From Closterium sp. NIES-65 (lineage: Eukaryota > Streptophyta > Zygnematophyceae > Desmidiales > Closteriaceae): a stretch of 64,000 nt of DNA. The notes under the pieces are model-generated. The model saw only the letters and a list, made by a program, of their open reading frames with translations. It did not search any database and had not been told where the DNA came from. The position numbers and the translations under genes were made by a program. Where the stretch lies: positions 1-64,000 of the forward strand of contig CANXME010002001.1 in assembly GCA_948144175.1 (NCBI GenBank), given 5' to 3'. The stretch's first letter is position 1; every line of letters begins with the position of its first letter. Below, piece by piece: positions 1 to 43,715 of this stretch.

Positions 1-625
1 GTTTGTGTCTCCGCGCGCGGTTTCTATTTTGTCGTGGCGGTTTCTATTTTGTCCTGTGTCGAACGTTCGGTGTGTCGCAGGTGTGTGCAGCAGACCCATC
101 AAGAACTCAAGGATGAGTTTGTGATGAAGAGCCCGAGCCTTGGTGTCAAGCATCAAGTGATTTCGAAGCTCGCCAAAAGGGTACACCTCAAGATATTGAA
201 GATAGTTACATTACTTTGTGTAGTGTAACATTTCACTTGGTGTAGGCCCTAGTGAAGGGTAGTTTCGAGACCCTTCGTGATTGGGGACAGTGCGGTACTG
301 TTCCACATCACTGTACCTCGGCTCTTGGGGTTTGTAGGAGCTGGGAGTCATTCCCAACTCGTAACTCTTCCTAACTCTTCCTATCTTGTGTTCTAAGACT
401 ATAGTGGCTGCCATAGTGCCGTTCGTTCAAACTGCCGTTGTGTCGTCAATACTGGTGAAATCGTGCGATCTAAACTGCCTATTGTAGGCGACAATAAGAC
501 GCTCAGATCCAAGTTGAATCAAGTCATTTGAAGTTGTGAACACAACGCTATGAACGTTTGAAGCTGCTGTACAGAAATCCGGCTTTGCACTCTATCTTTC
601 ATTTGAGCCTACTGTGACTATAACA
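1..625 (+). repeat. 5' LTR (partial) of copia-1
   Basis: This stretch matches 5670-6305 almost base for base, apart from small indels near its start and end. It ends in ..ACTATAACA and is followed by a tRNA-iMet primer-binding site, so it is the right-hand part of a 5' LTR whose beginning lies left of the window. Small ORFs inside it are not genes. Confidence 0.88.
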
Positions 626-627
626 AG

Positions 628-642
628 TGGTATCAGAGCCCC
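628..642 (+). other. primer-binding site of copia-1
   Basis: TGGTATCAGAGCCCC starts two bases after the 5' LTR. It is complementary to the 3' end of plant initiator-Met tRNA, the usual primer of Ty1/copia elements. Confidence 0.8.
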
Positions 643-659
643 TTGGAGCAGTTTCGACG

Positions 660-1760
660 ATGGATGGACCTGAGGAAAGGGGTGGCAGAGGTCCTGGTGG
701 CAGAGGAGAAGCCCAAGCTCAAGGCCAACCCCGTGACTCAGCCATGGCGCCCGTGCAACCAAGTGTTGGCCCATCTAGGGATGAGCCTAGAGTGTTTGGC
801 CTTGACAAGTTCAATAGTGACAACTTTGCTGAGTGGTCCTTCAGAATGGAGAACATATTTGACCACTATGACCTGCTGGAGGTGATGGAAGGAACGGAGA
901 AGCGTCCCGAGAACGACCCGGAGAAGAGCCCGTGGGTGCGGAAGAGCGCACAAGGCTACCTCCTACTTGGGCAAGCGTTGGGGAGCAGCCAAATCCGTCA
1001 CATCAAGCCTTTCCAGCGTGAACCAGAGAAGGGACCAAAAGCATCGGCTGCTCTCAAGGGTGTACACGCTCCTGCAACAGCGGCGGTAGCTGTGGTGTTG
1101 GAACGGCAAATGGCGACGTTACGAATTGAAGAGGATGAAGCGGTTGAAGAAGGGGTGCAGAAATTCTTCGACTTGTTGACGCGGCTTGAGGGAGTGGATT
1201 TGAACTATAGTGAGCTCGAAAAGAAGACCAATTTGCTGGCCCTACTCCCTGAATCATGGTCCTCGGTCATCATCAACCTGAATCGCGACTTGCCCCGCCT
1301 CTCGCTCGAAGACGTGAAGCGAGCTATCCTTCAAGAGGATTTCCGCCGCCGTGAGTTGGCGAGTGCGGATGGCGCTGGGGCAGCGAGCATCAGCCGTGGA
1401 TATGGTCGAGGAAGAGGCAGAGGACGAGGGGGAGGAAGGCTTGGTGGCAGCAACTTCGGCGGAGGCCGCGAGAGTGGCGGTTACGGCAGCGACGACAAGA
1501 GCTACGGGCGCGGTCACGGCCGATTGGACGGCGAATGCCATTATTGCCACAAGAGCGGACATATGGGGCACGATTGCTACAAGCTCCCTAATGGTTGGAC
1601 CCCTGCTCAAGGCCAGGAGCGTAGAGGAGCAGGAGAAGGGAGAAGAAGAGGCCGTGGAGGTCGTGGCAGTCGCGGTGGCGGAGCTGCAAACATGAAGAGC
1701 GGAGACAATGACAAGGACCCGAGTAACGATCGGTACCCGGGTCTATTCTACTTCGTGTAG
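660..1760 (+). CDS. copia-1 Gag
   Basis: Nucleocapsid-type Gag of a Ty1/copia retrotransposon, about 366 aa from the ATG at 660 (the frame is open from 627, before that ATG). The N-terminal third has the copia Gag signature (FNSDNFAEWSFRMENIF), which packages element RNA. A Gly/Arg/Ser-rich RNA-binding stretch follows, with a zinc knuckle C-x2-C-x4-H-x4-C (CHYCHKSGHMGHDC, nt about 1538-1580), then another RG-rich tail. The frame closes with TAG at 1758-1760, just before the protease. In related elements gag and pol are continuous, so this stop may be a mutation. Gag is intact, but its pol is not. Confidence 0.8.
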   Translation: MDGPEERGGRGPGGRGEAQAQGQPRDSAMAPVQPSVGPSRDEPRVFGLDKFNSDNFAEWSFRMENIFDHYDLLEVMEGTEKRPENDPEKSPWVRKSAQGYLLLGQALGSSQIRHIKPFQREPEKGPKASAALKGVHAPATAAVAVVLERQMATLRIEEDEAVEEGVQKFFDLLTRLEGVDLNYSELEKKTNLLALLPESWSSVIINLNRDLPRLSLEDVKRAILQEDFRRRELASADGAGAASISRGYGRGRGRGRGGGRLGGSNFGGGRESGGYGSDDKSYGRGHGRLDGECHYCHKSGHMGHDCYKLPNGWTPAQGQERRGAGEGRRRGRGGRGSRGGGAANMKSGDNDKDPSNDRYPGLFYFV

Positions 1761-1799
1761 ACGCAAGTACTGACTGGTCCAGAGAAGGATGAAGGCTTT

Positions 1800-4700
1800 G
1801 AGGAGCCAGCAGCTATGGGGAAGGTGACACTACACCCCCTGGACTATTGGGTGATCGATAGTGGCGCTACCTATAGCATGACACCTCGCCTGGACTTGCT
1901 CACCGAACTCGAACCGTCACCGGTGAAGCATGTCACATCGGCTTTGGGGCAGCGAGCGGAGGTGAAAGGCATGGGGCAAGGCCATGTTTAAGGGTGCTGA
2001 TGGGAAGATGGTGGGCCTCAAGAATGTGCTTTGGGTGCCCAGCCTTGCTGCCAACCTGATTTCCGTGCGGCGGTTGGCAAAGGCCGGCATGGACATGAAC
2101 TCGAAGGGAGCCAAGACATACACCGCAAGGCTTGGCGATCGGATTCTTTGGGACCTTCATGAGGACAGAGATGTCTACAACGAGATGTGGCAGATCCCTG
2201 TGGTCCCAATGCCTAAGGAGAGGCAAGTGGCAGCAAGCGTCAGCACCAAAGGTGGAGCGGTTGGTAGCGGCGATTGCGCGGACGGTAGCGCTAACGAGAA
2301 GGAGTCCAAGAAGTGCAAACTTGGAGGGACCATCAAGCTTGGTAAACCTATGGAGAAAGGTGCAGCAGCCAAGGAGCAGCAAAAGGGTGAGGAGAACCCC
2401 AAGGCAGCAGCGAAGGAGGACTACGGAGAGAGTATGTGGGGCGCTATTGCGAGCGCGGCATTCTCCAATCCAACTTCGGCTACGGGGGAGTGTGATTGGC
2501 TCACCTTGCATCGGCGCATGGGGCATGTGGCCTGCCCATCTTGCAGCAGCTAGTGAAGAATGAGATGGTTGCTGGCATACGTGTGAAGAGGGAGCCCGAT
2601 GAGGTACTTGGCTGCCCGACGTGCATGCAAGCCAAGTTCACCCGTTTCCCATTCTCTAGTTCGGAGGCAACGGCTAAGGCACCACTTGATGAGGTGGTGA
2701 TGGACGTGGTGGGCCCCTGAAGCTTGGAGCTGCTGCAGCTGAGTATTCCTCACTATTGTGGACGTCTACACCCGTATGACTTGGGTGTACGTGCTGGCCA
2801 AGAAGAGCGACGTGGCTGAAACGTTGAAGGCGGATTGGTTCCCGATGGTGGAGCGGCAACAAGACCGTCTAGTCAAGTCAATCCGCACCGATCGAGGGGA
2901 GAGTTCCTGAGCAAGGAGTTTGGGTTGTGGCTGAAGAAGAATGGTATTCGGCACTCCCTCACCATGCCATTCTCCCCTGCAATGAACGGCATCGCCGAGC
3001 GAGCGACCGCACAATCACGGAGGCGGCACGCGGGTTGCTCATTGAAGCAGGGGCTACCCGAATATTTCTGGCCTGATGCGGTTGCGGAGTGCGTGTGGTG
3101 GCCAAGAACAGAGCCTTGACTCATGTGGGAGCAGAAAAATGGGGTGCCCCTATGTGGAGTGGCTAGGAAGGAAGCCAAAGGTGGATATGCTTCTGGTGTT
3201 TGGGTGCATGTGCATGGCGCTCGTGCCTAAGCATCTTCGGCACAACAAGCTTGGTGCCAAGGCGGTGTGGGCCGTGGGGCATGGCTCAAAACAGCAAGGG
3301 ATGGCTTCTTTGGGACCCATTCACCAAGAAGTTCTTGGTGATCAGGGAACTGCAAGTTCATGGAGAACTTCATGTACAAGGATTGGAAGGCGGAGAATGA
3401 GGCGAAGATAGGCGTGCGGTTTTGGGGAGGTGAAGAGTTCCGGTTTGGAGCATGTGGAGCTGCCTTTGGAGCTGAGCAGCAGAAGCACTACCACAAGGCA
3501 ATCTTCCCTTGTGAATGGGGGAGAGGAGGCCAATGATGCCGAGGAAGAAAGAGGAGGAGGTGCAGCAAGTGAGCGAGCGTGCACCGTCACTCCCTTCCCG
3601 CACATACGAGTGCTCCACGGATTCGAGCCACACCGCAGCAACGCCAAGGCCTTCAAGTCCCTGCAGCTGAGGAGGAAGGAAGGGGGGAAGAGGAAAGTTC
3701 AAACCCCCTAATAGGCTGACTTATGATGCACTGGGAAAGCAAGGCAAGACAGCATTGGCGGGAGCGACAATGATGGTTCGGAGACGACGAGGAGAGTGAC
3801 TACGAGGAGTGTGTCTTCCACGTTCTTCTCTCCGGTGGAGATGCCGGGGAGAAACCAGCAACCTCAAGGAGGCTTTGGAGAGTAGTGATGCTGAGGATTG
3901 GAAGAAGGCCATGGAGAGTGAGCTGAAGAGCATTGAGGAGAATGACAGCGTTGAAATTGGTGGAGCTACCGGAATGGCGTACGGCGATAACGTCCAAGTG
4001 GCTCTTCAAAATCAGTCGGATGCCGACGGCAAGATCGAGCGCTACAAGTCTAGGCTTGTAGCCAAGGGGTACCAGCAGAAGGAGAAGGTGGACTTCAAGG
4101 AGCTGTTTGCCCCTGTGGTGAAGCCGACGACGCTGCGAACCCTATTCGCGGAGCCGCCATCAAAGGATGGGTGGTGAAGCAAATGGACATTGTGACGGCA
4201 TTCCTAAACGGCATCCTTGAGGAGGAGATTTTATGGCGCAGCCAGAGGGGTTGATGATGGTAGTGGCAGAGTGTGGAAGCTGAAGAAGGCCCTCTATGGG
4301 CTGAAGCAGGCCCCTAGGCAATGGTACATGAAGCTGCGCGAAGTGTTGGAGGAGATCGGCTTCACTCCCTCAACAGCCGATCACTCCTTGTTCATGCTTG
4401 GCGATGGGGAGCAAAGGAGTTTCATGGTGGTTTATGTGGATGACATTCTCATATTCTCACCCTCCTCTGACCTTGTGAAGGAGGGTGATGCTGAAGCTGC
4501 ATGACAAGTTCAAGTGCAAGTCCCTTGGTGACGTGAACTTCTACCTTGGGCTCCACATCGAACTAGACGTGGAGAAGCGTAGCATGCGAGTGCACCAACG
4601 GAAGTACCTGGAAGGCGTTGGCTGCCAACTTTGGCCCAGAGTGAAGGTCATGTGGCTACTCCCTTTCCCTCTGGGTTCAAGTGTGTGAAGGGACCAGAGG

Positions 4701-5430
4701 AGGAGAGCGTTTGTGAAGAGGAGAGGCGCCGTTTCACTCGTTGGTGGTGCAGCCTCATGTATGCGGCGGTAAACACCCGAGGCCCGGACGTCGCGTTTGC
4801 TACCGGGCAGCTATCTAGGTTAGTGCAATGCCCTAATGAGGAGCAGGTAGCAGCTGGAATGAGGGTGGCAAGTATCTTGGCCAAACACCCGACCGTTGGG
4901 CTGCAATACTCGGCGGCGGCACAAAGGCGCCAAAAGGATGCGGATGTGTTGAGCCCGGGCGTTTGTTCCTCACTACCTACTCGGATGCTTCATATGCATC
5001 AGAAACAGAGGACATGACAAGAGTGGGGAGGCTTCATATGCTGTGTTGGTGGAGGCCCAACTGCTTGGGAGAGCAAGAAGCAGGTTGACCAAGCTTTGAG
5101 CTCGGTGGAGTCCGAGTACATGGCACTCTTCCGTGCGGTACGAGAGATTGTGTGGCAGCGGCGTTTGTTGGCTGAATTGGGGGGAGGAGCAGCAGGACCT
5201 ACCCCACTGTATTGTGACAGCCAGGTGCCATTGCTCTTGCTAAGAACCCTGTGTTGCAATGGACTCACGAAGCACATGAGGGTGAAGTGGCTTGGACGAG
5301 GAGCGTGGTGCCGCGGGTGAAGTTGAGTTGCGCTACGTGAAGACCACGGGGCAGCCGGCTGACATGATGACCAAGAGGCTGGTGGAGCAGCAGCATTGGA
5401 AGTGTTGCAAGCTGCTGGGATGGCTCTGAA
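1800..5430 (+). pseudogene. copia-1 Pol remnant (PR-INT-RT-RNase H)
   Basis: Broken Ty1/copia polyprotein read in pieces across frames. The order is aspartic protease (WVIDSGATYSMTP, about 1850), a GAG-pre-integrase motif (LHRRMGH, about 2506), integrase core pieces (2700-3120, with the GIAERA active-site Glu region), reverse transcriptase (KSRLVAKGYQQKEKVDF at about 4050, YGLKQAPRQWYMKL at about 4300, catalytic YVDD at about 4433) and RNase H (VESEYMALFRAVREIVWQ at about 5110, ending ADMMTKRLVEQQHW at about 5360-5400). Frameshifts occur near 1985, 2550, 2720, 3120, 4175 and 4500. PR-INT-RT-RH order defines Ty1/copia. It cannot encode a working polyprotein. Confidence 0.88.
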
Positions 5431-5476
5431 CTGAGAGAGCAACATATCCTAAAGGCCAACAATCCGAGGGGGAGTT

Positions 5477-6305
5477 TGTTGGTGCAACCCTATGGTTTGC
5501 ACTCGGCTTGTTGTCCGTGTGCATGCATGTGTTGTGTGTATAGAATGGTATGAGGGCATGGGATTAATATATATTTCATGCTTATAATTGTGTGTGAATG
5601 TTGAGTCATGATGTCGAGTGTGTGTGTCGAGTCAATAGCGAGTTATCGCTAGACGCGTGTTACGCGGTCGTTTGTGTCTCGCGGCGGTTTCTATTTTGTC
5701 GTGCGCGGTTTCTATTTTGTCCTGTGTCGAACGTTCGGTGTGTCGCAGGTGTGTGCAGCAGACCCATCAAGAACTCAAGGATGAGTTTTTGATGAAGAGC
5801 CCGAGCCTTGGTGTCAAGCCTCAAGTGATTTCGAAGCTCGCCAAAAGGGTACACCTCAAGATATTGAAGATAGTTACATTACTTTGTGTAGTGTAACATT
5901 TCACTTGGTGTAGGCCCTAGTGAAGGGTAGTTTCGAGACCCTTCGTGATTGGGGACAGTGTGGTACTGTTCCACATCACTGTACCTCGGCTGTTGGGGTT
6001 TGTAGGAGCTGGGAGTCATTCCCAACTCGTAACTCTTCCCAACTCTTCCTATCTTGTGTTCTAAGACTATAGTGGCAGCCATAGTGCCGTTCGTTCAAAC
6101 TGCCGTTGTGTCGTCAATACTTGGTGCAATCGTGCGATCTAAATTGCCTATTGTAGGCGACAATAAGACGCTCCAGATCCAAGTTGAATCAAGTCATTTG
6201 AAGCTGTGAACAGATCGCTATGAACGTTTGAAGCCGCTGTACAGAAATCCGGCTGTTCACTCTATCTCTCGTTTAGGCACATTGGAGCCTACTGTGACTA
6301 TAACA
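5477..6305 (+). repeat. 3' LTR of copia-1
   Basis: 829-bp LTR beginning TGTTGGTGCA and ending ..ATAACA, preceded by a purine tract (GAGGGGGAG). Its right part duplicates 1-625. Sequence resumes at 6306 inside a different retroelement (gypsy-1), so copia-1 inserted into gypsy-1. The matching target duplication would lie left of the window. Confidence 0.88.
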
Positions 6306-6778
6306 AGGCTCGCGTGCCAGACCTCAGTGTTGCTTATGGAGGCAGGAGCAGTGGAAGTGGAGGGGATGAAGGTAAAGACAGCAATCATTGACACTGGAGG
6401 ACAGAGCGTGATGTTGGGTAGGGGGATGGCCGAACATTTAAGGCTGATGGCACCGGAGAGGCATGTGGCGAAGGGGATGCTGGTCAATGACGGCAGAGGG
6501 AGGGGAACCAAAGTGGATGCCGTGCATGCGGACCCCCATAGAGTTGACCCTGCTGCCAGGAGGAGAGCATGAAATGAGGATCAGGATGAAGTGCGGGATC
6601 TTGGAGTCTGAGGACTTCGATCTGCTGGTGGGGACTGAACTGGTGTTCGCTGTAGGCATGGGCATATGTACCTGGACAGAGAAGGTGGAGTTCAGGACGA
6701 GGTACTGGATGAAGGAGGGACCATTGGGGCAGCTGCCAGTGCAGTTTGTGAAGGTAGAACCGAAGCGGGCCTATCAAG
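6306..6778 (+). pseudogene. gypsy-1 aspartic protease
   Basis: Retropepsin-type protease of a Ty3/gypsy polyprotein. The flap and active-site region reads VKTAIIDTGGQSVMLG (Asp-Thr-Gly catalytic triad, about 6370-6418). About 75 residues later comes the expected second half, ESEDFDLLVGTELVFAVG. The two halves lie in different frames, so there is one frameshift near 6500-6515. The upstream part (gag) was displaced by copia-1 and is outside the window. The protease normally cleaves the Gag-Pol precursor. Here it directly precedes a methyltransferase domain. Confidence 0.75.
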
Positions 6779-7795
6779 TTGGGGCAGGAGGGGCACAGAA
6801 GGGGCAGGGAGGGGACAACAGAGGCCAAGGAGGGGCCCAGGATGAAGCCGATGGACAGGCCGGGACAACAGAGCGACTGGCAGCAGCCCATTCGGCTGGT
6901 GGAGTTGTTTGGGGGCATTGGGGCAGGGCTGGCAGCAGCGGTGAGAAGTGGGGTTGCAGTGCAGCAGTGGATCTATGTGGAGCGGGCACCACAGGTGCGA
7001 AGGATGGCTGAATATCATGCGCCGCAGTTGAGAAGGGAGTTCCCAGACCTCCTGAGCGAACGAGTGATTCAGGATGCCATCATGAGCGGTACCGTGCACG
7101 ACGTGAGTCAGATCACAGAGGAGTGGGTGGCTAGCTGGGGGCAGGTGGACCTGCTGGTGGCAGGATGGGAGTGTCAAGGAGTGTCATGAGCCGGAGGGGG
7201 AAAAGGGGGAGAGGACCCAAGGACGCAGCTGATGGACAACCTGTTCAATATCTTGGAGTGGCTGCAGGAAAGGCAGGGCAGAGTAGCGTTCTTGCTTGAG
7301 AATTTGGACTTAGATGGGGACTGCAGAGAGCCGATTCGACTGGTGAGGGAGAAGATAGGCAGGCACTTGGGTAAGGGGATGAGCTGTGATGCAACTAGAG
7401 TGGGATCGTACGCACACCGCCTCAGGATGTACTGGCAGAACGTGGTTCCAGTGATGGACCTGCAGGAGGAAGCAGAGGGGATGAGGAGGGCAACAGGGAG
7501 AAGGGTGGTGGACATCCTAGAGCCAGGATGGACTCCCGCGCCAGTCTGCCAAAGGAGTTACAGCAGGCATTACCCATGTAACCAGGTGGGGCAAGACAGG
7601 AGGGCGCTGCCCACCTTGGTCGCGTATGCAGGGGCAGCAGGCTACAGATGGGAAGGGGGGCAGCCTGGGCCCGGGCTGGTATATGACCACAAAAGGGGAC
7701 GATGGGAGGAACCAACGGCATTGGAGCGGGAGCTGGCTATGGGGTATGGAGAGAACGACCCTGTTCGACAGGCAGGCACCTCCTTGGAGAGCTAG
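6779..7795 (+). pseudogene. retrotransposon-encoded C5-cytosine DNA methyltransferase (one in-frame stop)
   Basis: A DNA (cytosine-5) methyltransferase domain lies inside the pol region of a Ty3/gypsy element, after protease and before reverse transcriptase. Visible motifs, numbered from 6779: motif I LVELFGGIGAGL (residues about 40-51, SAM binding); motif IV DLLVAGWECQGVS (catalytic Cys about 132; ECQ where PCQ is usual); motif VI-like LLENL (about 172-176, ENV in most members); motif VIII-like AHRLRMYWQN (about 212-221); and a late ALERELAMGY motif (about 314) resembling the motif IX region. The frame stays open except for one TGA at 7187-7189, directly after motif IV, where this family usually has Arg (CGA to TGA). 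The first 35 residues are a Gly/Gln-rich linker. At about 300 residues it is a compact enzyme without chromatin-reader domains. DNMT capture by retrotransposons is known from dinoflagellates and charophytes. The inferred role is methylation of element or host DNA. A cellular DNMT pseudogene is unlikely given the flanking PR and RT of one element. Confidence 0.85.
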
Positions 7796-8559
7796 GGTTA
7801 GGCTAGAGCTAAGAGGAGTTTTCGAAGTAACTTCTCCTAGGCTAACCCCCCACCCACGAAATCGGAAGCAGCGCCTCCCGAGGTCGGAAGGAGGGGGTCG
7901 TTATGGCGATGTTGCCACCCCTCCTTCCACCATCTTCATCGTGGGCAGGGTCTAAAATTTTGCATAGGGATGGCATGGAACCTGGGTAACTCAAGGGAAT
8001 AAAAAAGATTGGAGAAGTGGAGAAATGAGAGTCGTGCGTGTCTGGTGGCTGGTTTGGTTGTGTGAGGAAGGGACTTTTTCAGGGGCAGAGATGGGAGAGG
8101 CAAGAGCATGGGCACAGGTGGGAAAACTTTCGTAGGGTATGGGGTGGGTATTCCCTCCCGTATGCAACCCTAACCTAGCCCTTGGCCAACCTTCCTTCTG
8201 GGGATTGGAGGGCTGGGCTAGAGCTAGGTTAAAGTCTGTGCGGGAGAGAAGGAGCTAGGAGCTTTCGGGGGAGATAAAGTTGAAGGGTTAATGTCGCGTT
8301 CGACAGGCTAACCCTTAACCCTTCAAGGTTGTAGGGCGTTAAAGCCTAGTGACACCAGTTTGCGGGCTGAGCGTGAGAAAAAAGCCTAAGTGGAGACAGC
8401 CGTGATGATTCCGCAGAAGGGCTCGCCTGCCTATCGAACAGGGCCAACGTGACAACAGCACCAGGGGTGAGTGAGGAAGACAGGAGGAGGGCACTGGGGA
8501 ATGCCATGGACGGCTATATGATGAGGTGGCTGCTGCAAAGGATGTGGTGAGAGATGGTC
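7796..8559 (+). other. spacer between DNMT and RT in gypsy-1
   Basis: About 760 bases without a long frame in any register. The G-rich, purine-biased composition matches the rest of gypsy-1, so it is probably decayed linker or connection coding sequence, perhaps once part of a longer pol. No domain is recognisable. Confidence 0.5.
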
Positions 8560-11526
8560 CTAGGCTGGGGGCAAGAAGCGGAGGAGGTGGCGGCAGCAGC
8601 AGCCCCACAAGGAGTGTGGAGCTGCAAGGCAGAGGAGGGAGAGAAGTGGACAGTGGGGGAAGCGATGAGCAAGGAGGGAAAGGGGGCCATGCTGGAGCTG
8701 CTAGCCAAGCACAGGAAGTGCTTTGCCTTCACACTGCAGGAACTGGGAAGGTGCAAGGTGAAGGAGATGGAGCTGAAACTGAGCAGCATGGAGCCAGTGC
8801 TCCAGCGGCGTAGGAAGATGCAGCACTTAGATGAGGAGATATGCAAGGAGAAGATTAAGGAGCTGCTAGCGGCTGGGCTGATCAGGCGCTCCGAGTCCGA
8901 ATACGCCACGCCAACGGTGGCGGTAGCGAGGAAGGACTTGACGGGGGAGATCCTGAGCAGGAGGATGTGCGGAGATTACTGAGCGCTCAACAAGATTACT
9001 GTGGCGAGCAGATACCCAATGCCGATGGCGGAGGAGATATTTGACAAGTTGGCGGAGGGGGTGTTCTTCACGACGCTGGACCTGCGACAGGGGTTCAACC
9101 AAATAAAAATCAGGGAGGAGGACATCAAGAAGACGGCCTTCCATGGGCCGGATGGGCTGTATGAGTGGCCTTATATGCCATTCGGGGTGAGGAACGCATC
9201 AGCAGTGTTCCAGAGGGTCATGGATGAAGTGCTGAGGGATGTGGAGTGTGCGGCGTACTACATAGACGATGTAGTGATCTTCAGCACCTCTGAGCAGCAA
9301 CACCTGCAGGACGTAGACAAGACCCTGGCGGCAATAGAAGCAGCAGGACTTACGTGTCATCCGAAGAAGTGTAGGTGGGGCGAGCAAACCGTTCAGTACC
9401 TGGGCTATGAGGTAAAGGGGGGGCAGATCGGGATACAGCAAGCGAAGATGGAGGTGCTGTATAGGCTGCGAGAGCCAAAGGACAAGACAGGGCTAAGAGC
9501 GGTGCTGGGATTCCTGAGCTACTACCGGCGGTTCATGCCCAACTTCAGCAGGTGAGCAGCAGTGCTCAACAGGGCTGTTAAGAGAAGACAAGACATGGGA
9601 GTGGGGGGAAGCGCAGAGGGGGGCATTGCAGGACCTGATGGCAGCGGTGAAGACAGCAACCGTCTTGCAGCTGCCCGCGGCAAACCAGCCCTTCACCCTT
9701 TACACAGACTGGAGTAGCCAGGGGATGGGCGGGATACTCTGCTAGGAGGTGGAAGGAGATGAGAAGGTGGTGGCCTATGCGAGCAGGAGCTGCAACTTGG
9801 CGGAGGCACAGTACAGCTCATACACAGGGGAGGGATTGGCGGCAGTATGGGCCGTGGGGCACTTCAGGGTCTATCTGCAGGGGCGGGAGTTCACCTTAGT
9901 GACGGACCACCAGCCTTTGACCTGGCTGATGACCACAACAGGGCTAACAGGCAGGAATGCACGGTGGGCGATGAAGTTGCAAGAGTACGACTTCAAAATC
10001 AAGCACCGGCGGGGAAAGACACTGCAACATGTGGACGGCCTCTCCCGTAACCCCCCACCATTAGAGCCCACAGGGACTCTAGCAGTGCTGGCCAGACAGG
10101 TGGAGCTGAGCGAGGCAAAGGGGGGCAAGGGGCCAGCAGACATATGGGAGGATGAGCAGGCCGTGAGATGGGTGAAGGGGGAGATAGGGGCCGACGAGGA
10201 GATGAGCGAAAGGGTGAGAGCAAGGGGGCACCACTACAGGTGGTACCAGCAGCAGTTGCAGATACAGACTGAGGACGGGTGGAAGCTGGTGCCAGCACCA
10301 GGCGACAGAGAGGCAGTGATCAGGGAGGTGCACTCAAAGTTGGGACACTTCGGGCATGAGAGGACAGTGCAGCTGCTGAAGACAGGCTGGTGGTGGGAAG
10401 GAATGCGCAGGCAGATGCAGAAGTGGGTAGAGGGATGCGAGGCATGCCAAAGGAGCCGGGAAAACCTCACTCAAGTGAAGGCCGAGCTGCAGTCCTTGCC
10501 CATTTGCGGGTTAGGCTTTAGGTGGTCCTTGGACCTGGCGGGAACTGCCGCTGAGTCGGGGGGGGAAGAGGTACATAGTGCTCATGGTGGAGCACGTGAG
10601 CAAGTGGCTGGAGGTGAGGGCTATCCCCAGCAAGAGCTCAAGGCACGTAGCTGCAGCATTCGAGGAACAGGTGGTGTGCAGATTTGGGGCGTGTGCAGAG
10701 GTGCTCACTGACCAAGGAACAGAGTTTCAAGGGGAGTTCAGGGAGCTGTTAGAGGAAGTAGGAATCACTCACCGACGCACCTCTCGGTATCACCCACAGA
10801 GCGATGGGCTGACCGAGCGCCTAGTACAGACACTGAAGCGAGGGCTGCGGGCATATGGGGAGAAGAGGAAGCAGGAATGGGACAATGAGCTGCACTAGAT
10901 CGCGGCAGGATATAGGTTTGGGAAGCAGGCAGCCCTGAGAGATCATTCACCCTATAGTCTCCTGTTCGGTTGTGAGCCGGTGCTGCCGGTGGGGGCACCA
11001 CGGGTCCTCACGGACACTGTGACAGCAGGTACCATAGACAACTGGGTGGCCTTGTCAGAAGCAAGGGCAAGGTACCTCCAAGTGATAATGCCAGCCGTAC
11101 TGGAAAACCTGCACACGGCATAGCTGAGGGACGCCAAGCGCTATGAGCAATGCCAGCAGCAAAGGGATGGGAAGGAAGGAGAAGAAGGGGCCGGTGAGGG
11201 ACAGGAGGTGTACCTGAAACGGGCGAAACAGGATACGCTGGACGTCGGGGTGGGGACAGAGAGGTGGAGGGTGAGGGAGGTTCGGCCCTCAGGGATTCTC
11301 GTGCCGGAGAACGAGAAGGGGGCACAGCTGAAGGAGCACCAGACCAACAAGGCCCTGGTAAGGGGGAGCAAGCCTCAACCAGCGGGTCCTGTGACTCGAG
11401 CTCAAGCCACTTGTGCACGGGCACAGGAGGGGGTAGTGGGTGACTGAGGAAGGGCAGCACCGAGCAAGGAGGGGTAAGGGGAACAATGGAAGAAGAGCAG
11501 GGGCTGGTGGAGGTCACATACTCCGA
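8560..11526 (+). pseudogene. gypsy-1 Pol: reverse transcriptase, RNase H, integrase
   Basis: Ty3/gypsy polymerase region. RT: PTVAVARKDL (about 8910), YPMPMAEEIFDKLAEGVFF (about 9012), TLDLRQGFNQIKI (about 9076), MPFGVRNASAVFQRVMD (about 9177) and catalytic YIDD (about 9260). RNase H of the gypsy type: LYTDWSSQGMGGILC (about 9700), LVTDHQPLTWLM (about 9895). Integrase: zinc-binding H-H-C-C (HSKLGHFGHERT ... CEACQRS, about 10330-10450), then LMVEHVSKWLEVRA, LTDQGTEFQGEF and HPQSDGLTERLVQ with D-D-E residues (10583-10830). In-frame stops include TGA 8980, TAG 9743, TAG 10896 and TAG 11121, with a frameshift near 10550. No chromodomain is visible at the C-terminus. The closest relative in the window is gypsy-2. 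Confidence 0.9.
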
Positions 11527-12053
11527 TAGCTGTCACCGCATATGCAAGGAATGCATATGCAATAACAGTAGCGTGCGGTGTTGAAGAAGTAGTATTAGAA
11601 TAGTTAGGAATATAGTGAAGTAGATGAATAGGAAGTAGTGTAGCTTTGCAGCCAGTAGCGCAGTGTCGGTTGCTAAGGGGTGTAGAAAGGGGGGGAATAT
11701 GTGAGAGCGGGTTGGGATAGTGGGGGGAAAGCACCGAAGGGCGAAATGGGGATTTGAACGAATCCCAACCTCGAGCCGCACATTGGAAATGTGCAAACCG
11801 AGGTCGGGTAAGTTCACCCACGCCAAGTCATTCGATGCCTATTGTGTGGTATTCTCTCAGACTAGTGGATAGTTGTCATACTAGCCTCAACACGCAGCGA
11901 CACAACACTAAGGGGGAACCTGTGGGGTGAGGGAGCAATCCCGTTCATTGGGGGCAGTGGGTGACTGAGGAAGGGCAGCACCGAGCAAGCAGGGGTAAGA
12001 GGAACAACGGGAAGAAGAGGGAAGAGCAGGGGCTGGTGGAGGTCACATACTCC
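11434..12053 (+). repeat. direct repeat of the gypsy tail flanking about 420 bp
   Basis: About 95-105 bases at 11434-11526 (GTGGGTGACTGAGGAAGGGC to the ..CACATACTCCGA block) recur at 11949-12053 with a few changes and a short insertion. The 420 bases between them hold no gene. This segment may be an LTR or the product of unequal exchange. The second copy leads straight into a hAT coding fragment. Confidence 0.7.
11740..11824 (-). other. cloverleaf-like tRNA relic (weak)
   Basis: On the minus strand, 85 bases begin GGCG and end CGCC and contain three nested hairpins: GGGT/ACCC, a long anticodon-like arm (GCACAT loop ATGTGC inside CCTCG/CGAGG) and a T-arm-like GGGATT/AATCCC around TTCAAAT. This resembles a degraded class-II tRNA or tRNA-derived SINE head. 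The acceptor and D arms are poor, so it is not called as a working tRNA. Confidence 0.25.
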
Positions 12054-12605
12054 GACAACATGTTTTGTTGTGTTTCGAATGTGCCTAGCAGGAGATGGCC
12101 CAACCTCATCCTGCTGTGGCATGCGGTGGCTGTGCTTCCCCTCTCCACCGTGGAGTGCGAGAGGGGGTTCTCCAGGCAGAACATCATCGAGTCCTGGGTG
12201 CGTGGAGCGCTCTGCAACGCTCGTCTGGGGGAGCTGATGCAGATATCGCTCCTGAAGTACGAGATCGAATGGTCGGAGGCACTGGAGGTGTGGAGGTCCA
12301 TGCGGAGGAGGCGCCCTGTGAAGAGCCTGAAGCTGGCCGTGGCAGAGAGGGAGAGGAAGAGGAAGCAGAAGGAGGGTGAAGCTGTGGCTGCTGGAATTGC
12401 GAGGGAGAACGAGGACGAGGGGGAGGGGGAGGAGGAGGAGGAGGAGGAGGAGGAGGAGGAGGAGGAGGAGGAGGAGGAGGAGGACGATGAAGTGGAACAG
12501 GACTTGGGCGACGATCAGGAAGTCGTGGAAGAGAAGGACAACCCTTTCTTGTCGGACGATGAGGTCGTAGAGGAGGTGTACTTCATTGACAAACCCATGC
12601 ACTAG
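12054..12605 (+). pseudogene. hAT transposase C-terminal dimerisation domain with acidic tail
   Basis: The frame (open from 11961) holds the hAT-family C-terminal dimerisation signature: PNLILLWHAVAVLPLSTVEC, then ERGFSRQNIIESW and LGELMQISL, about residues 48-95. After it come a basic stretch and a run of about 20 Glu residues encoded by a GAG microsatellite (12419-12482), then D/E-rich sequence to TAG at 12603. The BED zinc finger and catalytic RNase-H fold of a full transposase are absent. The 5' end joins directly to the duplicated gypsy tail, so this is a chimeric fragment. A second, separate copy of the same domain lies at 43716-44010. Confidence 0.75.
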
Positions 12606-13154: not shown

Positions 13155-13203
13155 TTTTAGGTTTAGGGTTTAGGGCTTAGGGTTTAGGGTTTAGGGTTTA
13201 GGG
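13155..13203 (+). repeat. interstitial telomere-like array (TTTAGGG)
   Basis: About seven units of the plant telomere heptamer TTTAGGG, two slightly mutated (GTTTTAG, GCTTAGG), sit directly beside the chromodomain remnant. The plant-type motif supports a green-lineage host. Confidence 0.9.
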
Positions 13204-14152: not shown

Positions 14153-16808
14153 GCCTTCACCCTGCAGGAATTGGGGAGGTGCAAGGTGAAGGAGATGGTG
14201 TTGAAACTGAGCAGCACGAAACCAGTGTTTCACCGCAGGAGGAAGATGCCACACGGGGATGAAGAAATCTGTAAGGAGAAGATCAAGAAGCTGCTGGGAG
14301 CGGGACTGATTAGGAGGTCAGAAGCAGAGCACGCCACATCGACAGTGGTGGCAGCCAGGCTGGACTTGACAGGGGAGGTGTTGAGCAGGAGGATGTGTGG
14401 GGACTACAGTGCACTTTACAAGATCACCATAGCGGACAGATACCCGATGCCAATGGCGGAAGAGAACTTTGACAAGCTAGCAGAGGGGGTGTTCTTCACA
14501 ATGTTGGACCTGCGGCAAGGGTTCAACCATAAGATCAGAGAGGAGGACATCAAGAAGACGGCCTTTCATGGGCCGGACGGGCTGTATGAATGGTTGTACA
14601 TGCCATTTGGGTTGAGGAACGCCTCATCCGTGTTCCATAGGGTCAACGACAGCGTGCTGAGGGGCGCGGAGTGGTGATCTTCAGCACGACAGAGCAGCAG
14701 CACCTGCAGGTTGTGGAGAGGACCCTGACAGCAATAGAAGCGGCGGGACTCACCTGCCACCCAAAGAAGTGTAGATGGGGGGAACAGACAATGCAATACC
14801 TGGGTTACGAGGTGAAGGGGGGGCAGATGGGGATACAACAGGCCAAGGTGGAGGTCCTGGATAGGCTTAGGGAGCCTAAGGACAAGTCAGGACTGAGAGC
14901 GGTGCTGGGCTTCTTGAGCTACTATAGGCGATTTGTGCCTAATTTCAGCAAGAGAGCGGCGGTACTGAATGGGCTACTGCGGGAAGACAAGGCGTGGGAG
15001 TGGGACTGCAGGACTTAATGACAGCAGTAAAGACAGCTACGGTGCTCAAGCTGCCCGCCGCCGATCACCCGTTCATGCTCTACACCGACTGAAGTAGCCA
15101 AGTGATGGGGGGGATACTCTGCCAGGAGGTGGAGGGAGAGGAGAAGATGGTGGCATATGCGACTAGGAGCTGTAACTCGGCGGAGGCACAGTACAGCTCT
15201 TACATAAGGGAAGGATTGGCAGCTTTATGGGCTGTAGGGCACTTCAGAGTGTTCTTGCAAGGGAGGGAGTTCACCTTGGTGACGGATCACCAGCCTCTGA
15301 CGTGGCTGATGACAACACCGGGGTTGACGGGCAGGAATGCACCGCGGGCAATGAAGCTGCAGGAGTATGACTTCAAAATCAAACACAGGCATGGAAAGAC
15401 ATTGCAGCATGTGGATGGTCTCTCTCGGAACCCCCCACTGCCAGAGCCCACTCTGACCCTGATACTGCTGGCAAGGCTGGTGGAGCTGAATGGGGCCAAG
15501 GGACAGAAGGGGCCAGCAGATATTTGGGAGGATGGACCAGCCATGCGGTGGGAGAAAGGAGAAACAGGAGAGGACGAGGAGCTAACAGCGCGAGTGAGGG
15601 CAAAGGAACAGAACTACAGATGGTACCAACAGCAGTTGCAGGTACAGACAGAGGACGGATGGAAGCTGGTGCCAGCGCCAAGCGAGAGGCAAGCGGTGAT
15701 CAAGGAGGTACATACAAAGCTGGGACACCTTGGGCATGAGAGAACGGTGCAGCTGCTGAAAATAGGATGGTGGTGGGAAGGGATGCGGAAGCAAGTAAAG
15801 GGGCGGGTGGAAGGCTGTGATGCATGCCAGAGGAGCAGGGCAAACCTCACCCAAGTGAAGGCTGAGTTGCAGTCCCTGCCCATCCGAGGCCTAGGGTTCA
15901 GATGGTCCTCGGATTTGGCGGAGGAGCTGCCGCTAAGCCGGGGGGATAAGCAGTATATTGTGCTCATGGTGGAGCATATGAGCAAGTGGCTGGAGGTGAG
16001 GGCTATCCCGAGCAAGAGCTCTAGGCATGTGGTAGAAGCGTTCAAAGAGCAGGTGATATGCAGATTCGGGGCATGTGCATAGGTCCTCACGGACCAGGGA
16101 ACCAAGTTCCAAGGGGAGCTCAAGAAGCTGTTGGAGGAGGCAGGGATCACCCACAGGCGCACTTCTCGATACCACCCACAGAGTGATGGGCTGACAAAGC
16201 GCCTAGTGCAAAACCTGAAGCGGGGACTTTGAGCATATGGGGAGAAGAGGAAGCGGGATTGGGATGAGGAGCTGTACTGGATTGCAGTAGGGTACAAGTT
16301 TGGGAAACAGGCGGCCCTGAGAGATCCCTCTCCATATAGTCTCCTATATGGATGTGAACCGCTGCTGCCGGTGGAAGCAGCCCGGGTCCTCACAGTCATA
16401 GTAACGGCAGGCACCATAGAGAACTGGGTGGCTCTGTCAGAAGCCAGGGCAAGGTACCTGCGGGTCATGATGCCAGCTGCATTGGAAAACCTCCACACCG
16501 CACAGCTGAGAGATGCTCGGCGCTATGAGCAGCGGCAGCAACAAGGGGCAGGGGGGAAAAGCAAAGAAGGGAGTGAATCAGGGACAGGAGGTGTACCTGA
16601 AACGGGCAAAGCGAGATACCCTGGATGTCGGGGTGGGCTCTGAGAGGTGGAGAGAGAGGGAGGTACGTCCCTCGGGGGTACTGGTGTTGGAAAATGAGAA
16701 GGGAGCAGTTCTGAAGGAGCACCAGAGTAACACAGCCATGGTGAAAGGGGGCAAGCCTCAACAGGATGGTCCTGTGACACAAGCTCAAGCAGCTCGAGCA
16801 CGAGCATA
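14153..16808 (+). pseudogene. gypsy-2 Pol (5'-truncated relative of gypsy-1)
   Basis: Begins inside the pre-RT region (AFTLQELGRCKVKEM) and runs through RT, RNase H and integrase with the same motifs as gypsy-1: YPMPMAEENFDKLAEGVFF (about 14440), MPFGLRNASSVFHRV, LVTDHQPLTWLM (about 15280), HTKLGHLGHERT plus CDACQRS (about 15710-15835) and LMVEHMSKWLEVRA (about 15960). The active-site stretch around YIDD is missing: about 15 codons are deleted near 14672, where gypsy-1 has AAYYIDDV. Stops include TGA 15090, TAG 16080 and TGA 16230. Protease and DNMT are absent. Length and order otherwise match, so the two copies can be compared codon by codon. Confidence 0.9.
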
Positions 16809-17022
16809 GGAGGGGGCAGTGGGTGAATGAGGCTAGACAACACAGAGAACGGAGGAACAAGAGAGACAGCAGGAGAAGAGCAGGTGCAGGAGGAAGAGAC
16901 AGCGGGAGAAGCGCAGGTTCAGGAAGAAGACCAAGGTCCAGGAAGAAGACCAAGGTTCAGGAAAAAGGTTCTCCGACATTGAAGATCAACATCAACCGCC
17001 ACCAAGAACACCTACATCTGAC
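16809..17022 (+). other. purine-rich low-complexity stretch
   Basis: GAG/AAG-rich sequence with short internal repeats (AGGAAGAAGACCAAGGT.. twice, 16920-16960). It joins the gypsy-2 tail to the first exon of the next gene. No function is visible. Confidence 0.5.
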
Positions 17023-23331: not shown

Positions 23332-26253
23332 GGGCCGTCTTGCCCCATTCGCCTTGGTGATGATAGCATCATCCCAAGCAAAGGGCGGACACGGATCAAC
23401 ATGGAGATTGAAGGTTATCGCCAAGAAAATTGCACGTATGTTTTACCCCTTCTCGCAGGCGTCGACCTTGTCCTTCGAATGGATTGGCTTCGAGCAAATG
23501 AAGTCAAGCTCGCTTCCAAGGACAATACGGTCTCATTATCAAAGAACGGTGACACTGTCCAGCGGCAAGTGCCTAAGGACTTGATCACGAACGAGCAACA
23601 CACGTTGGAACGCCCCGATGTAAGTTTTGCGCTTGCGAACGAGTTCGAATAGCATGTTCGACAAGCTGATACATTTTTTTTGTACACATTGAGAATGCTG
23701 GATGCGAGCTGCCTGGGGTTGAGGATTTCTTGCCTCAGATAAAATAATTGGCGGACGAGTTTGCGAAAGTTTTTGAGCCCATCCCAGATGGCCTTTCTCC
23801 GGACCGTGCGGTCGGTCATACCATCCCCGTAGAGCCGGGAAGACTCCCACCGTTCAGAACTCTGTATCGCCTTAGTCCAGCTGAGTACGAGGAGGCTCAA
23901 ATCAAGGAGTATCTCATGAAGGGATGGATTGAACCAAGTGCATCACCTTATGTTCGTGAACAAAAAGGGCGGAGGGTTACACATGTGTGTAGACTACTTT
24001 GCTCTGAACAAGATAATGGTGAAAAACAAATACCCCCTTACCAAGGATATAGGATCTGTTCGACAAACTCCAAGGTGCCAAGTGGTTCAGTGTATTGGAC
24101 CTCGCGCAGGGGTATCACCAATTGTGCATCACTGAAGAATATGTACCCAAAATGGCTTTCTGATCACCGTTTGGTTATTTTCTGTGGCGAGTGCTGAGCT
24201 TTGGCTTGACCAATGCTCCTGCCTCTTTTCAAAGGGCTATGAATTATGTATTTCGCGAGGCGATTGGATAGTTTGTTCTAGTCTATCTGAATGACATCTT
24301 AAGTGGGTGTTAGGGAAACTACGAGAGCATCAGTTCTATGCTCGTCTGTGAAAATGTCATTTCTACAAATGCATGTTGAAATATCATGGCCATCTCGTGG
24401 GAAATGACAGTCTCAAAGTAGACCCAAATAAAGTTGTCGCAGTCCAGAACTAGCCGGTGCCACAAGATGTGGGTCAAATCAGGTTGTTTTTGGGACTGGC
24501 AAACTATTTTCATCGATTTTTGCAAAATTATTCTACCATTGTTGCTCCGTTGACGGCCCTCACTCGCAAGAGTAGTGCTTGGCAATGGACACAGCAATGA
24601 CAAAAGGCATTTGACGAGGTCAAGCGAATGCTGGCCAATGCTCCGGTACTGGTTTTACCAGATCCAATGGAACCCTATGAGGTCGTTACTGACGCCTCAT
24701 TGATAGGGATCGGGGCTGTCCTTTTGCAAGAGGGGAGACTAGTGGCATTTGAGATTCGAAACCTCTCCCCAGCAGAGCAGCGCTATACGACGTCCAAACA
24801 GGAATCGTTGGCGGTCGTTCATGCGCTACGAACGTGGTGATGTTATCTGGAGAGTGTGGACTTTGTGGTTATGACCGACCACTGTCCAAACACCTACTTC
24901 TCCAACCAAGCCACGGTAACTCGACGTCAAGCCCGATGGGCTAAAATCCTTAGAGGTTTTACATTCGATATTCGATATCGAGCTGGTTTGACGAACCTGG
25001 CTGACCCCCTCAGCAGACAGCCGATAGGGGCAGCAACACGGCTAGACGACATGGAAGATGCGGCAGTATTTTCTGCTTTTTCAATGTCCTAACAGCAGCT
25101 CGAGTGAGTGAGATCACCTTCAGCGGTTTTCTAAAACGCATCCACACAGGGTACCAAATTGAATCCTGGTTTCCGAACCCACGAAACACCAAGGAACTCA
25201 AGTGGGAGCATGAGCTTTGGTGGCGTGCGAAGCAGATTGTTTTACCTCACGTGGGTAACATGCGGAATGACATTCTGGAAGAAGTGCATGCCACTAAGTA
25301 CGGAGGACACCTAAGGGTCAAGAAGACCAGGTGGGTCTGACAAATGGTGCATTTTGTGGCTACGACAACTGACCTTTAGGATGTCATCGGCGTTCCACCC
25401 ACAAACGAATGGGTAGACGGAACGAACAAACCGGACACTTGAGCAGATTCTTCGTTCATTCATTGGCCCAACTCAGGATGATTGGGACGAGTTGTTGCCT
25501 GTCGTTGAATTCGCAGTGAACAATTTAGTTCATGAAGGTACACATGCGAAACCTTTCATTCTGAACTATGGTCGGCATCCCGCAACACCTGCTACGCATA
25601 GGATCGGTGGATTGAAAATTCCAGCCGCTAAAGACTTTCTTGGCAAGCAACAACAAGCGCTTAAGTCTGCTTGCCATTGGCTGCAACTTTCTCAGCAGCT
25701 TCAAAAGTCTTACGCCAACATGAAATTCCGGGAAGTCTCATTTGAGGTTAGAGACAAAGTTTTGTTGAGCACAAAGAACATTCGTCTCAAAATCCCTAGA
25801 GCACGAAAGCTGTTCCCTCGATGGATTGAGCCATTCAAGGTGATCAAGAGTGTTGGAGTGGTAGCTTACAAGCTTAAGCTACCTGATACATTACAGATTC
25901 ACAGCGTCTTTCATGTGTCTCTGTTGAACAAGTATGTTGCAGAGAGCAAGTACTTGTCGCCACCAACAATCGTCTTGAGGGAGGAACTATTTTACAAAGT
26001 CGGACGATTGCTGATGCATCGTGATCGACAACGCGGCCACAAGACAGTACGAGAGTTCCTCATCAAATGGAAAGGCTATGGGCCTGAACACAACTTATGG
26101 GAGCCAGAAAAGCATCTGAATGAAACTGCAGTTCAGTCGTACATGGCAAATCTGGCCCGACGAGCTGCCGCACAACCAGTGGATGGTGTTGAGACTGGTC
26201 GTAATGCGACACGGCATGCTCGAAGCGCTCGTCCTCAGAAGCACCCTTAGGCA
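23332..26253 (+). pseudogene. gypsy-3 Pol with C-terminal chromodomain
   Basis: Continues the split protease (YVLPLLAGVDLVLRMDWL, about 23434), then RT pieces (VGHTIPVEPGRLPPFRTLYR at about 23810, [20 protein letters not shown] at about 23980, RLFLGLANYFHRFL at about 24480), RNase H (VVTDASLIGIGAVLL at about 24683, VMTDHCPNTYFSNQA at about 24868) and integrase (VVEFAVNNLVHEGTHAKPF at about 25500; FKVIKSVGVVAYKLKLPD and HSVFHVSLLNKYV at about 25830-25930). The C-terminus is a clear chromodomain: VREFLIKWKGYGPEHNLWEP, about 26047-26106. From 25492 to 26250 the frame is intact for 252 aa. Upstream are many stops and frameshifts. Most of the integrase core is deleted around 25340. This is a chromovirus, unlike gypsy-1 and gypsy-2. 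Confidence 0.88.
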
Positions 26254-41859: not shown

Positions 41860-43715
41860 GAGTAAGTATGGAGCTGGCCCTCTCTTCCCGCCTTTGCTGC
41901 CTCTGCCCTCCTTCTATCCCACATTCGCCACTCCTCCCTGCCACCACCACAGCCTTAAACCCTTCCATGTAAATCCCTTAATTCCAGACTCCTACCTCAC
42001 TCGCACGGAGCTGCCCCCCTCTGCCCAATTTGTTGTCACTCTCCTCACTCAGTTCCACATCCCCTCCTCCCTCCTGCCACATCCTGCTCTCCTCCCCGCC
42101 ACCACCCCAGGCTCTAATCCTCCGCTGGAAATCCCAAGAGCCCTTCCTTTTTCCCACCTCGCAAGGAGCTGGCCTCATCTGCCCACCGTTTTGACTCTGC
42201 CCTCACTCTGTTCCACATCCCCTCCTCCTTCCTCCCACACCCCCCTCCCCTCCCCACCAGCAACCCAGACTCTAATCCTTCCATCTATATACCCCAAGCC
42301 CACCCTTCTCGCCTCACAAGGAGCTACTCCACTCTGCCCAATGTGTTGTCACTCCCCTCACTCTGTCCCACATCCCTTCTTCCCTCCTCCCACATGCCCC
42401 TCTCCTCCCCGCCACCACCCCAGGCTCTAACGGTTCCACAAAAATCTCCTAAGCCCCTCTTTCTTGCCTCGCAAGGGACTGCACCCTCTGCACACCGTAT
42501 TGTCTTTAACCCTTCTTCTTTCTGTCATCCTTGAAACCCTCCTCTCACTTCCCCCTCTCCGCCCCACCACCAACCCAGGCTCTAACCCTTTGATCCAATC
42601 CCTAGAGCCCCTCCTTTTACCTCACTCACAAGGAGTTACCCCTCTCTGCCCACCGTGTTGTCTCAACCATCACTCTGTCGCACATCCCCCTCGCCTGCCC
42701 TTCAACCCCCTAGGTCTAACCCCTCCAGCCGAATCTCCTAAGTCCCTTTTGTTTTCTCACCTCGCAATGAGCTACCCCCCTTGGTTTGGCCTCTTTGTCT
42801 CTCCCCTCACTCTGTTTCACATCCCCTCCTTCCTCCCACATCCCCCTCTCCGCCACCACCCCAGGCTCTAACTTTCCGAGCCAATGCCAATAGCACATCC
42901 TTCCCGCCTCGCAAGAGTCTGTTCCTCTTTGCCCGCACTCTGTCCCACGTCCCCTCCTCCTCCTCCTCCCACATCCCCCTCTCCTCCACGCCACCAACCC
43001 AGACGCTAATGGTTCAACCAAATCCCCTACGTGCTTGCTTCTTCCCGCCTTCCGAGGAGCTGCCCCTCTCTCCCAACTGTGTTGTCTCACCAATGATTCT
43101 CTCCCACACCCCCCCCGCCTCCCCGTTACCACCCCAGGCTCTAATCCTCCAAGCCAATCCTAAGAGCCCCATCTGCCCACCGTTTTTTCACTGCCCTCAC
43201 TTTATCCCACATCCCCTCCTCCCCTGTCCCACATCCCCCTTTCCTAAACCCGCCACCACAACAGGCTAAAACCCTTCCATCTACATCCCCCATTCCCGTC
43301 CTTTCTCCTCACCCGCAAGGAGCTGCCACCCTCTGCCCACTCTATTGTCTCAACCATCATACTATCCCAAATCCCTTCTTCCTTCCACATCCCCCTCTCC
43401 TCCTCGTCACCACCCTAGGCTCATTCCTTCTACCGACACTCTAATCCCCTCCTATCCTAAGCCCTCAAAAGGAGCTGCACCACTCAGCCCACCGTTTTTT
43501 CACTGCCCTCACTCTCTCCACATCCCCCTCCTCACTCCTCCCACATCCCCCTCTCCTCCTCACCACCATCCCAGGCTCTAATCCTCTGAGCCAATCACCA
43601 GAGCCCCTATTTCAACCTGCCATGCAAGGAGCTGCCCAACTCTGTTGGCCGTGCGCACGTTCTTAAAACTTCCAATGATTGTCATTTTCATTTTCTTCCC
43701 TTTGACCCCCGACAG
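41860..43715 (+). repeat. pyrimidine-rich tandem repeats filling an apparent intron
   Basis: Starts with donor GTAAGTATGG and ends in TTTGACCCCCGACAG, an acceptor. Between them lie about ten to twelve diverged units of roughly 150 bp, each with blocks such as CTCTGCCCACCGTTTTTTC, CACATCCCCTCCTCC, CACCACCCCAGGCTCTAA and CTCGCAAGGAGCTGCCCC. The strand asymmetry is very strong (C+T rich). Confidence 0.7.

Follow-up and report, generated by a model that had tools for sequence, protein, structure and literature searches.

A degenerate Ty3/gypsy retrotransposon of Closterium from a family with a DNMT3-like cytosine methyltransferase domain in its polyprotein

The window analysed here, which comprises the first 64,000 nucleotides of contig CANXME010002001.1 from the alga Closterium sp. 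NIES-65 (assembly GCA_948144175.1), carries on its plus strand, at about 6308-12055, a degenerate copy of a Ty3/gypsy retrotransposon in which a cytosine DNA methyltransferase (DNMT) domain sits between the protease and the reverse transcriptase (RT). The copy belongs to a family whose polyprotein has the order gag, CCHC, protease (PR), DNMT, RT, RNase H (RH) and integrase (INT), and a DNMT3-like C5-methyltransferase is a standing part of this polyprotein. Both our own domain profiles and Pfam recovered the order PR-RT-RNase H-INT with a DDE (rve) integrase, which places the element in Ty3/gypsy, and they confirmed that the DNMT lies on the same strand between the retropepsin and the gypsy RT/RNase H/integrase, as an original prediction made from the sequence had stated.

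The plus-strand domains begin with a retropepsin-like protease at 6327-6642, which is spread over two frames by a frameshift (own PR profile 2.3e-13 and 5.6e-14; Pfam gag-asp_proteas 0.0011, under its curated cut-off). It is followed by DNMT motifs I to IX at 6881-7762 (E 3.3e-116 and 383.7 bits with our own profile, whose seeds include Closterium sequences) and by the motif X region at 8437-8547 (profile E 1.1e-5; tblastn of P0001 residues 465-503 at 8446-8562). The RT (RVT_1) lies at 8893-9411 (Pfam 4e-28; own profile 3e-88) and the RNase H at 9602-9988 (own profile 1.1e-64; Pfam RT_RNaseH 2e-24), while the H2C2 zinc finger (10271-10474) and the rve core (10542-10802) of the integrase, each found by Pfam and by our own profiles, stand in different frames. 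As predicted, there is no sign of a chromodomain, neither among the Pfam matches of window positions 11208-11447 nor among those of the long Closterium protein P0132 (E up to 0.01). The best database relative has an E-value of 6.8e-160, and the identity of the window RT to Closterium protein P0032 reaches 91%.

The window copy is dead and unable to make a working enzyme, with defects in several places. Besides the frame breaks in the protease and between the two integrase parts, the DNMT carries an in-frame TGA at 7187-7189, just past motif IV (ECQGVS), and is split by a MITE-like (miniature inverted-repeat transposable element) insertion of 685 bp at 7759-8443, to which no strand was assigned and whose 19-bp terminal inverted repeats (7759-7777 and 8425-8443) match at 18/19 positions. 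The 4-bp sequence AACG flanks this insertion on both sides and may be a target duplication. Because the insertion splits the domain, motif X is set apart from the rest, and the DNMT does not end at 7795, where it had been placed.

Neither of the element limits first proposed was retained. On the 5' side the gypsy element is adjoined by a nearly complete copia element (1-6307, plus strand), with LTRs (long terminal repeats) at 1-627 and 5670-6307 that are 95% identical, the 5' LTR being cut by the window edge; TGGTATCAGAGC stands after this 5' LTR, and the sequence between the LTRs carries Pfam RVT_2 (5.2e-21). The proposed start at 6306 is thus merely the end of a copia LTR, and since copia adjoins gypsy on this side, the window lacks the gag, the 5' repeat and the left terminus of gypsy. 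The simplest reading of the sequence would be that copia inserted between the gag and the protease of the gypsy element, which stays unproven as the left flank lies outside the window.

On the 3' side, where pol ends near 11441, a block B1 (11429-11526, plus strand), which overlaps the end of the pol frame, matches a block B2 (11950-12055, plus strand) with 87.7% identity over 106 columns, 8 of them gaps, and with identical final letters. The sequence between them (11527-11949, plus strand) is read as repeat A2 from its position alone, with no A1 in the window for comparison. The element therefore probably continues past the predicted limit of 11526 to 12055, with B2 as its proposed right end. 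A plain LTR at the 3' end was considered and is not favoured, as a B block lies on both sides of 11527-11949; the right end has the form B-A-B, and the 5' side has been removed by copia. According to the parts of PMC5890265 that we consulted, DIRS elements are laid out as A-coding-B-A-B, and the gypsy element of Klebsormidium nitens has the same repeat structure. The B-A-B of the window might hence be the right half of such a layout, but this is a lead and not proof, because A1 would be outside the window and the second gypsy copy described below has one B-like block; a tandem or deletion origin is a possible alternative. Directly beside the right end, the stretch 12056-12605, which closes with a run of acidic residues, resembles by eye a hAT transposase C-terminus, with no Pfam match up to E 0.01.

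The motifs named in the original prediction (LFGGIGAGL, ECQ, ENL and ERELAMGY) are real in the sequence, and the DNMT frame, read with X at the stop, matches Pfam DNA_methylase PF00145 at 4.9e-6 and 26.6 bits (cut-off 22); the two halves searched separately gave no Pfam match up to E 0.1. Together with this match, motifs I, IV (Cys), VI (Glu), VIII (R.R) and X identify the domain as a C5-DNMT. A single-sequence search of the PDB with the window DNMT yielded DNMT3A (6.2e-6), and a profile of eight family sequences ranked DNMT3A (1.1e-18) before DRM2 (2.1e-10), HhaI (7.4e-8) and DNMT2 (0.012), with no DNMT1 chain up to E 1. This profile search of solved structures places the retroelement DNMT nearer to DNMT3 than to any of DNMT1, DNMT2 and the bacterial methyltransferases.

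Relatives of the window DNMT were collected by a protein search (32 matches, 26 from Closterium and 6 environmental), by a profile search, of which the best 120 of 291 matches were used, and by a search for longer proteins, whose 60 matches comprised 27 from Closterium, one from K. nitens (KFL_013780020, P0175) and 32 environmental ones. Among the listed matches with a coverage of 65% or more of the profile's first sequence, the lowest score of a family member is 247 bits or higher, as against 58 bits for the best ordinary methyltransferase, P0059, a border that is blurred by short fragments; a fragment from Tetradesmus obliquus, P0064 (2.8e-9), ranks among the ordinary methyltransferases in the matches listed.

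All counts of architecture refer to the 191 proteins retrieved and listed, scored with our own domain profiles. In Closterium, the DNMT is preceded by gag/protease and/or followed by RT in 39 of 64 proteins (on both sides in 10) and stands alone in the other 25; none has it between RNase H and integrase. The gene models P0133 (CCHC-PR-DNMT-RT-RH-INT) and P0137 (CCHC-PR-DNMT-RT) are examples of the joined form, and RT pieces occur both before and after the DNMT in P0160, a fused model. The 53 environmental proteins, mostly metagenomic, fall into 10 with the order PR-DNMT-RT (class A), 25 of class B, defined by a DNMT between RNase H and integrase or by one side of that arrangement (both sides were seen in 13 of the 25), and 18 with the DNMT alone. 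P0175 of K. nitens reads gag-CCHC-PR-DNMT, with PR at residues 587-692 and DNMT at 828-1155, in a partial record ending after the DNMT. In P0064 of T. obliquus (178 aa), DNMT motifs come after a tail that resembles RNase H, and both are matched in BLAST by the class B proteins P0047 (tail 3e-9, DNMT 1e-12) and P0054 (tail 2e-6, DNMT 1e-9); its DNMT probably, though not certainly, occupies the class B slot, since our own RNase H profile missed the short tail. Contrary to the original prediction, the order PR-DNMT-RT is not distinctive, PR-DNMT being found also in K. nitens and in environmental proteins.

These architectures leave a practically negligible chance that a methyltransferase gene fell by accident into one gypsy copy, or that the domain is bacterial contamination. 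We found nothing in support of either, and the same joint recurs in several Closterium strains, in K. nitens and in environmental proteins, which refutes them. A lack of any significant methyltransferase match, or the absence of the domain from other copies, had been named in advance as grounds against the original prediction; the PF00145 match is significant and other copies carry the domain. A prokaryotic or viral source of the DNMT was likewise rejected, as one scan of viral contigs (37 loci) and one of genome contigs (21 loci) yielded remote methyltransferases only, the best segments of the latter covering at most 161 of 326 residues at 24-46% identity. The window holds a second gypsy copy of the same family (14153-16894, plus strand), which runs from RT to integrase and is truncated at its 5' side. 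We rejected this copy as an example of a relative without the DNMT, because its start at 14153 is downstream of the expected DNMT site and it is thus uninformative on this point.

Of the 191 proteins, 17 have a PHD finger downstream of the integrase, namely 16 of the 25 of class B and one of class A (P0169). As a possible chromatin reader, this finger would suit an enzyme that acts mainly on the host in trans, changing chromatin or methylation to aid the element's expression, integration or persistence, and the Discussion of PMC5890265, as far as consulted, speaks of DNMTs of retrotransposons acting by accident on host DNA. We nevertheless consider such a role improbable, as the fixed place of the DNMT in Gag-Pol favours packaging together with the cDNA and as no PHD finger was found in the 64 Closterium proteins, 25 of which are DNMT-only fragments.

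Conservation of the active site was assessed on 76 family rows aligned to the profile, with ungapped rows counted at each position. The commonest residue of the median column reaches just 51%, yet the catalytic Cys of motif IV is kept in 67/68 rows, the Glu of motif VI in 71/71 and the Arg of motif VIII in 64/66 at each of its two sites. Within Closterium (31 rows), where the median column reaches 71%, the Cys is kept in 22/23 and the motif VI Glu in 26/26; in one Closterium copy, P0148, Ser replaces the catalytic Cys. The residue before the Cys is Glu in 45 rows, Pro in 22 and Asp in 1 (68 ungapped rows); in a separate alignment by MAFFT, with 79 rows of the family, the counts were EC 46, PC 24, DC 1, ES 1 and 7 gaps. 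With Glu in 45 of the 68 rows, the ECQ that had been singled out as distinctive is a recurrent feature of the family and not a quirk of the window copy. It could be argued that the DNMT fold has been kept for nucleic-acid binding or polyprotein folding, with catalysis changed or lost, since an acidic residue so often takes the place of Pro before the nucleophile (in 23/23 Closterium rows), since an 82-row DNMT tree with the outgroup set to Pro implies 9 or more switches between Pro and an acidic residue, and since P0148 has lost the Cys itself. But for binding there would be no need to keep the Cys, the Glu of motif VI and the Arg residues of motif VIII nearly invariant in classes A and B, and we give this explanation a low probability, similar to that of a host-acting role.

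On the same 82-row tree, classes A and B arise by one change each (SH-aLRT, the Shimodaira-Hasegawa-like approximate likelihood ratio test, 84), with 21 rows of unknown order uncounted. A 53-row tree, chosen from the 82 by leaving out 29 rows, including the long-branch P0044 and P0062 and many Closterium near-copies, supports class B at 99/92, class A at 90/82 and the outgroup of 5 ordinary methyltransferases at 100/100; the Closterium rows P0004, P0009, P0010 and P0040, without architecture evidence of their own, were assigned to A by taxon. K. nitens P0175 and its environmental near-twin P0178 fall inside class A on a long branch, with moderate support. K. nitens is present in the DNMT tree only, because its record has no RT. 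The tree of RT plus RNase H (36 rows, K. nitens not included) splits A from B at 98/98; its outgroup was a remnant of a different gypsy lineage with RT and RNase H, which lies in the window at 24029-24957. Distances of DNMT and RT are correlated (Mantel r 0.78 for 30 proteins, 0/2000 permutations; r 0.61 for 18 thinned rows, 0/2000 permutations), and the A/B split itself makes up part of this correlation.

Two histories could account for these trees. Each order corresponds to one split in the DNMT and RT trees and none of the 191 proteins has both slots filled, as would fit two captures from closely related donors, one into the PR-RT slot and one into the RH-INT slot. We regard this as rather unlikely against a single capture followed by a move within pol, since, in the set of rows used, the DNMTs of A and B have their closest relatives in each other, on a long stem to the ordinary methyltransferases (100/100) that form the outgroup, with no host DNMT3 among the rows, and since the occurrence of a PHD finger in both classes makes a shared Pol ancestor likely. 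Tentatively, and a little short of even confidence, we propose one ancient gypsy lineage, in which a DNMT taken up once was kept, along with the element's own RT, across streptophyte algae (Closterium and Klebsormidium), the chlorophyte alga Tetradesmus and environmental eukaryotes, while the slot moved between PR/RT and RH/INT, the PHD finger was gained or lost and Pro and Glu were repeatedly exchanged, giving a DNMT family that is specific to retroelements and altered in its active-site chemistry. Should this be correct, DNMT capture would not be confined to the lineage of K. nitens; the shared DNMT clade bears on the published view of an independent acquisition there.

A further trace is found in base composition. 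The observed/expected ratio of CpG is 0.48 at 6306-11526 and 0.44 in the second copy, as compared with 0.69 in the copia interior and 0.68 in the whole window. Between the two gypsy copies CG was kept at 35 sites and swapped with TG/CA at 74, while GC was kept at 156 and underwent transitions at 65 (Fisher p 3.5e-11). Such a loss of CpG fits CpG methylation of these gypsy copies in the genome.

We think it somewhat probable that this gypsy family, with its standing DNMT3-like domain, encodes an enzyme that methylates the element's own new copies de novo, the self-methylation being the part that we infer. The DNMT would be made as part of Gag-Pol, cut free by the protease and packaged with RT and integrase, and it might then carry out de novo CpG methylation either on the double-stranded cDNA or on the newly inserted element. 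In this way new copies would arrive already bearing the host's silencing mark, which could lower the cost to the host or hide them from defences acting on unmethylated DNA, and self-marking of this kind could keep the element family heritable. This proposal is supported by the joined architecture in Closterium, the catalytic residues kept in an otherwise variable domain, the DNMT3A-nearest profile, the joint distances of DNMT and RT, the loss of CpG and the de novo CG methylation reported in yeast for DNMTs of Symbiodinium DIRS elements in the parts of PMC5890265 consulted.

Several points weigh against it. Within class A the median identity is 47% for the DNMT and 70% for the RT, so that the former diverges faster and the two are not equally constrained, and selection on the DNMT was judged from protein conservation only. 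Activity could be altered or reduced by the unusual Glu that precedes the catalytic Cys. The loss of CpG indicates that copies were methylated but does not identify the enzyme, as host DNMTs would suffice; the 685-bp insertion, foreign to the gypsy family, is also low in CpG (0.55), and the gypsy copies are likely to be older than copia, which confounds the comparison between them. The long Closterium proteins are gene models, and because some lack inner DNMT pieces and others are joined to other elements, false introns and fusions are likely. Lastly, the K. nitens DNMT, the only gypsy one assayed according to the text of PMC5890265 consulted, gave no methylation in yeast, a result that its authors call inconclusive.

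Elsewhere in the window, interstitial TTTAGGG repeats of the plant telomere type occur at 13162-13203, and a tandem array with a unit of 155-158 bp (41917-42696) adjoins a strong negative GC skew (-0.52, 42001-44000). Arrays of a 17-bp minisatellite (ACACATGAGAGGGATAA) lie at 49950-50461, 51939-53146, 58958-60077 and 63063-64000, some of them surrounded by longer inverted repeats.

Host DNMTs silence transposons, so that an element keeping a DNMT of its own presents a paradox, and the module must pay if it stayed with the element over a wide green-algal divergence. The natural variants, of P-type and E-type, in two slots, with and without a PHD finger, make self-marking of retroelement DNA testable. 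In the literature searched (titles and abstract openings, with result lists partly covered), we found no DNMT retrotransposon in Closterium or Tetradesmus, nor, outside the supplements, a description of the PHD finger, of the RH/INT slot, of an extension to Tetradesmus or of the recurrent Pro/Glu exchange. The main text of PMC10407611 on Closterium genomes, as far as searched, mentions neither methyltransferase nor retrotransposon nor Gypsy, and the searched text of PMC12344493, which places some DNMT3s in streptophyte and dinoflagellate retrotransposons and names LTR Copia and DIRS, does not mention Closterium.

With regard to the enzyme, the nearest solved relatives are the catalytic domains of DNMT3A and DRM2, and DNMT3A motifs I, IV, VI, VIII and, weakly, X align in linear order. 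DNMT3A has an SPCN-type motif IV as aligned, where the window has ECQ, and in comparison with DNMT3A and DRM2 the retroelement DNMTs have a region of their own between motifs VIII and IX (DILEPGR...CN.G...LPTL). Among gypsy elements, chromoviruses also carry a chromatin-linked module in pol, a chromodomain at the integrase end; no chromodomain was found here, and most class B relatives (16/25) have a PHD finger at that end. Of the elements described in the consulted parts of PMC5890265, SymbioDIRS-Dnmt3 and SymbioLINE-Dnmt of Symbiodinium are likewise retrotransposons with cytosine DNMTs, and the former shares DNMT3-class domains and A-coding-B-A-B repeats; compared by description only, they differ in being DIRS (tyrosine recombinase) and LINE elements and not gypsy elements with a DDE integrase.

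The window element belongs to an already known kind, the gypsy element with a DNMT, and its closest known representative is KnitGypsy-Dnmt3 of K. nitens, with which its family can be grouped, with moderate support, by the DNMT clade and the protease-DNMT order. As far as PMC5890265 was consulted, KnitGypsy-Dnmt3 is likewise a gypsy element of the LTR type whose coding region includes a DNMT3-class domain, and the B-A-B right end recalls the DIRS-type repeats reported for it. In P0175, which we take from its species, domains and family, without an accession match, to be one of the KnitGypsy copies, the DNMT comes straight after the protease; it is homologous to that of the window (35% identity, 3.3e-35) and falls into one clade with it (90/82). 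The differences lie in the genus, in the extent of divergence at about 35% identity and in the catalytic motif, which is ECQ in Closterium and PCQ in K. nitens. Sequence comparison thus appears to trace this kind of element beyond K. nitens to more green algae, with Tetradesmus a probable case, and to environmental sequences.

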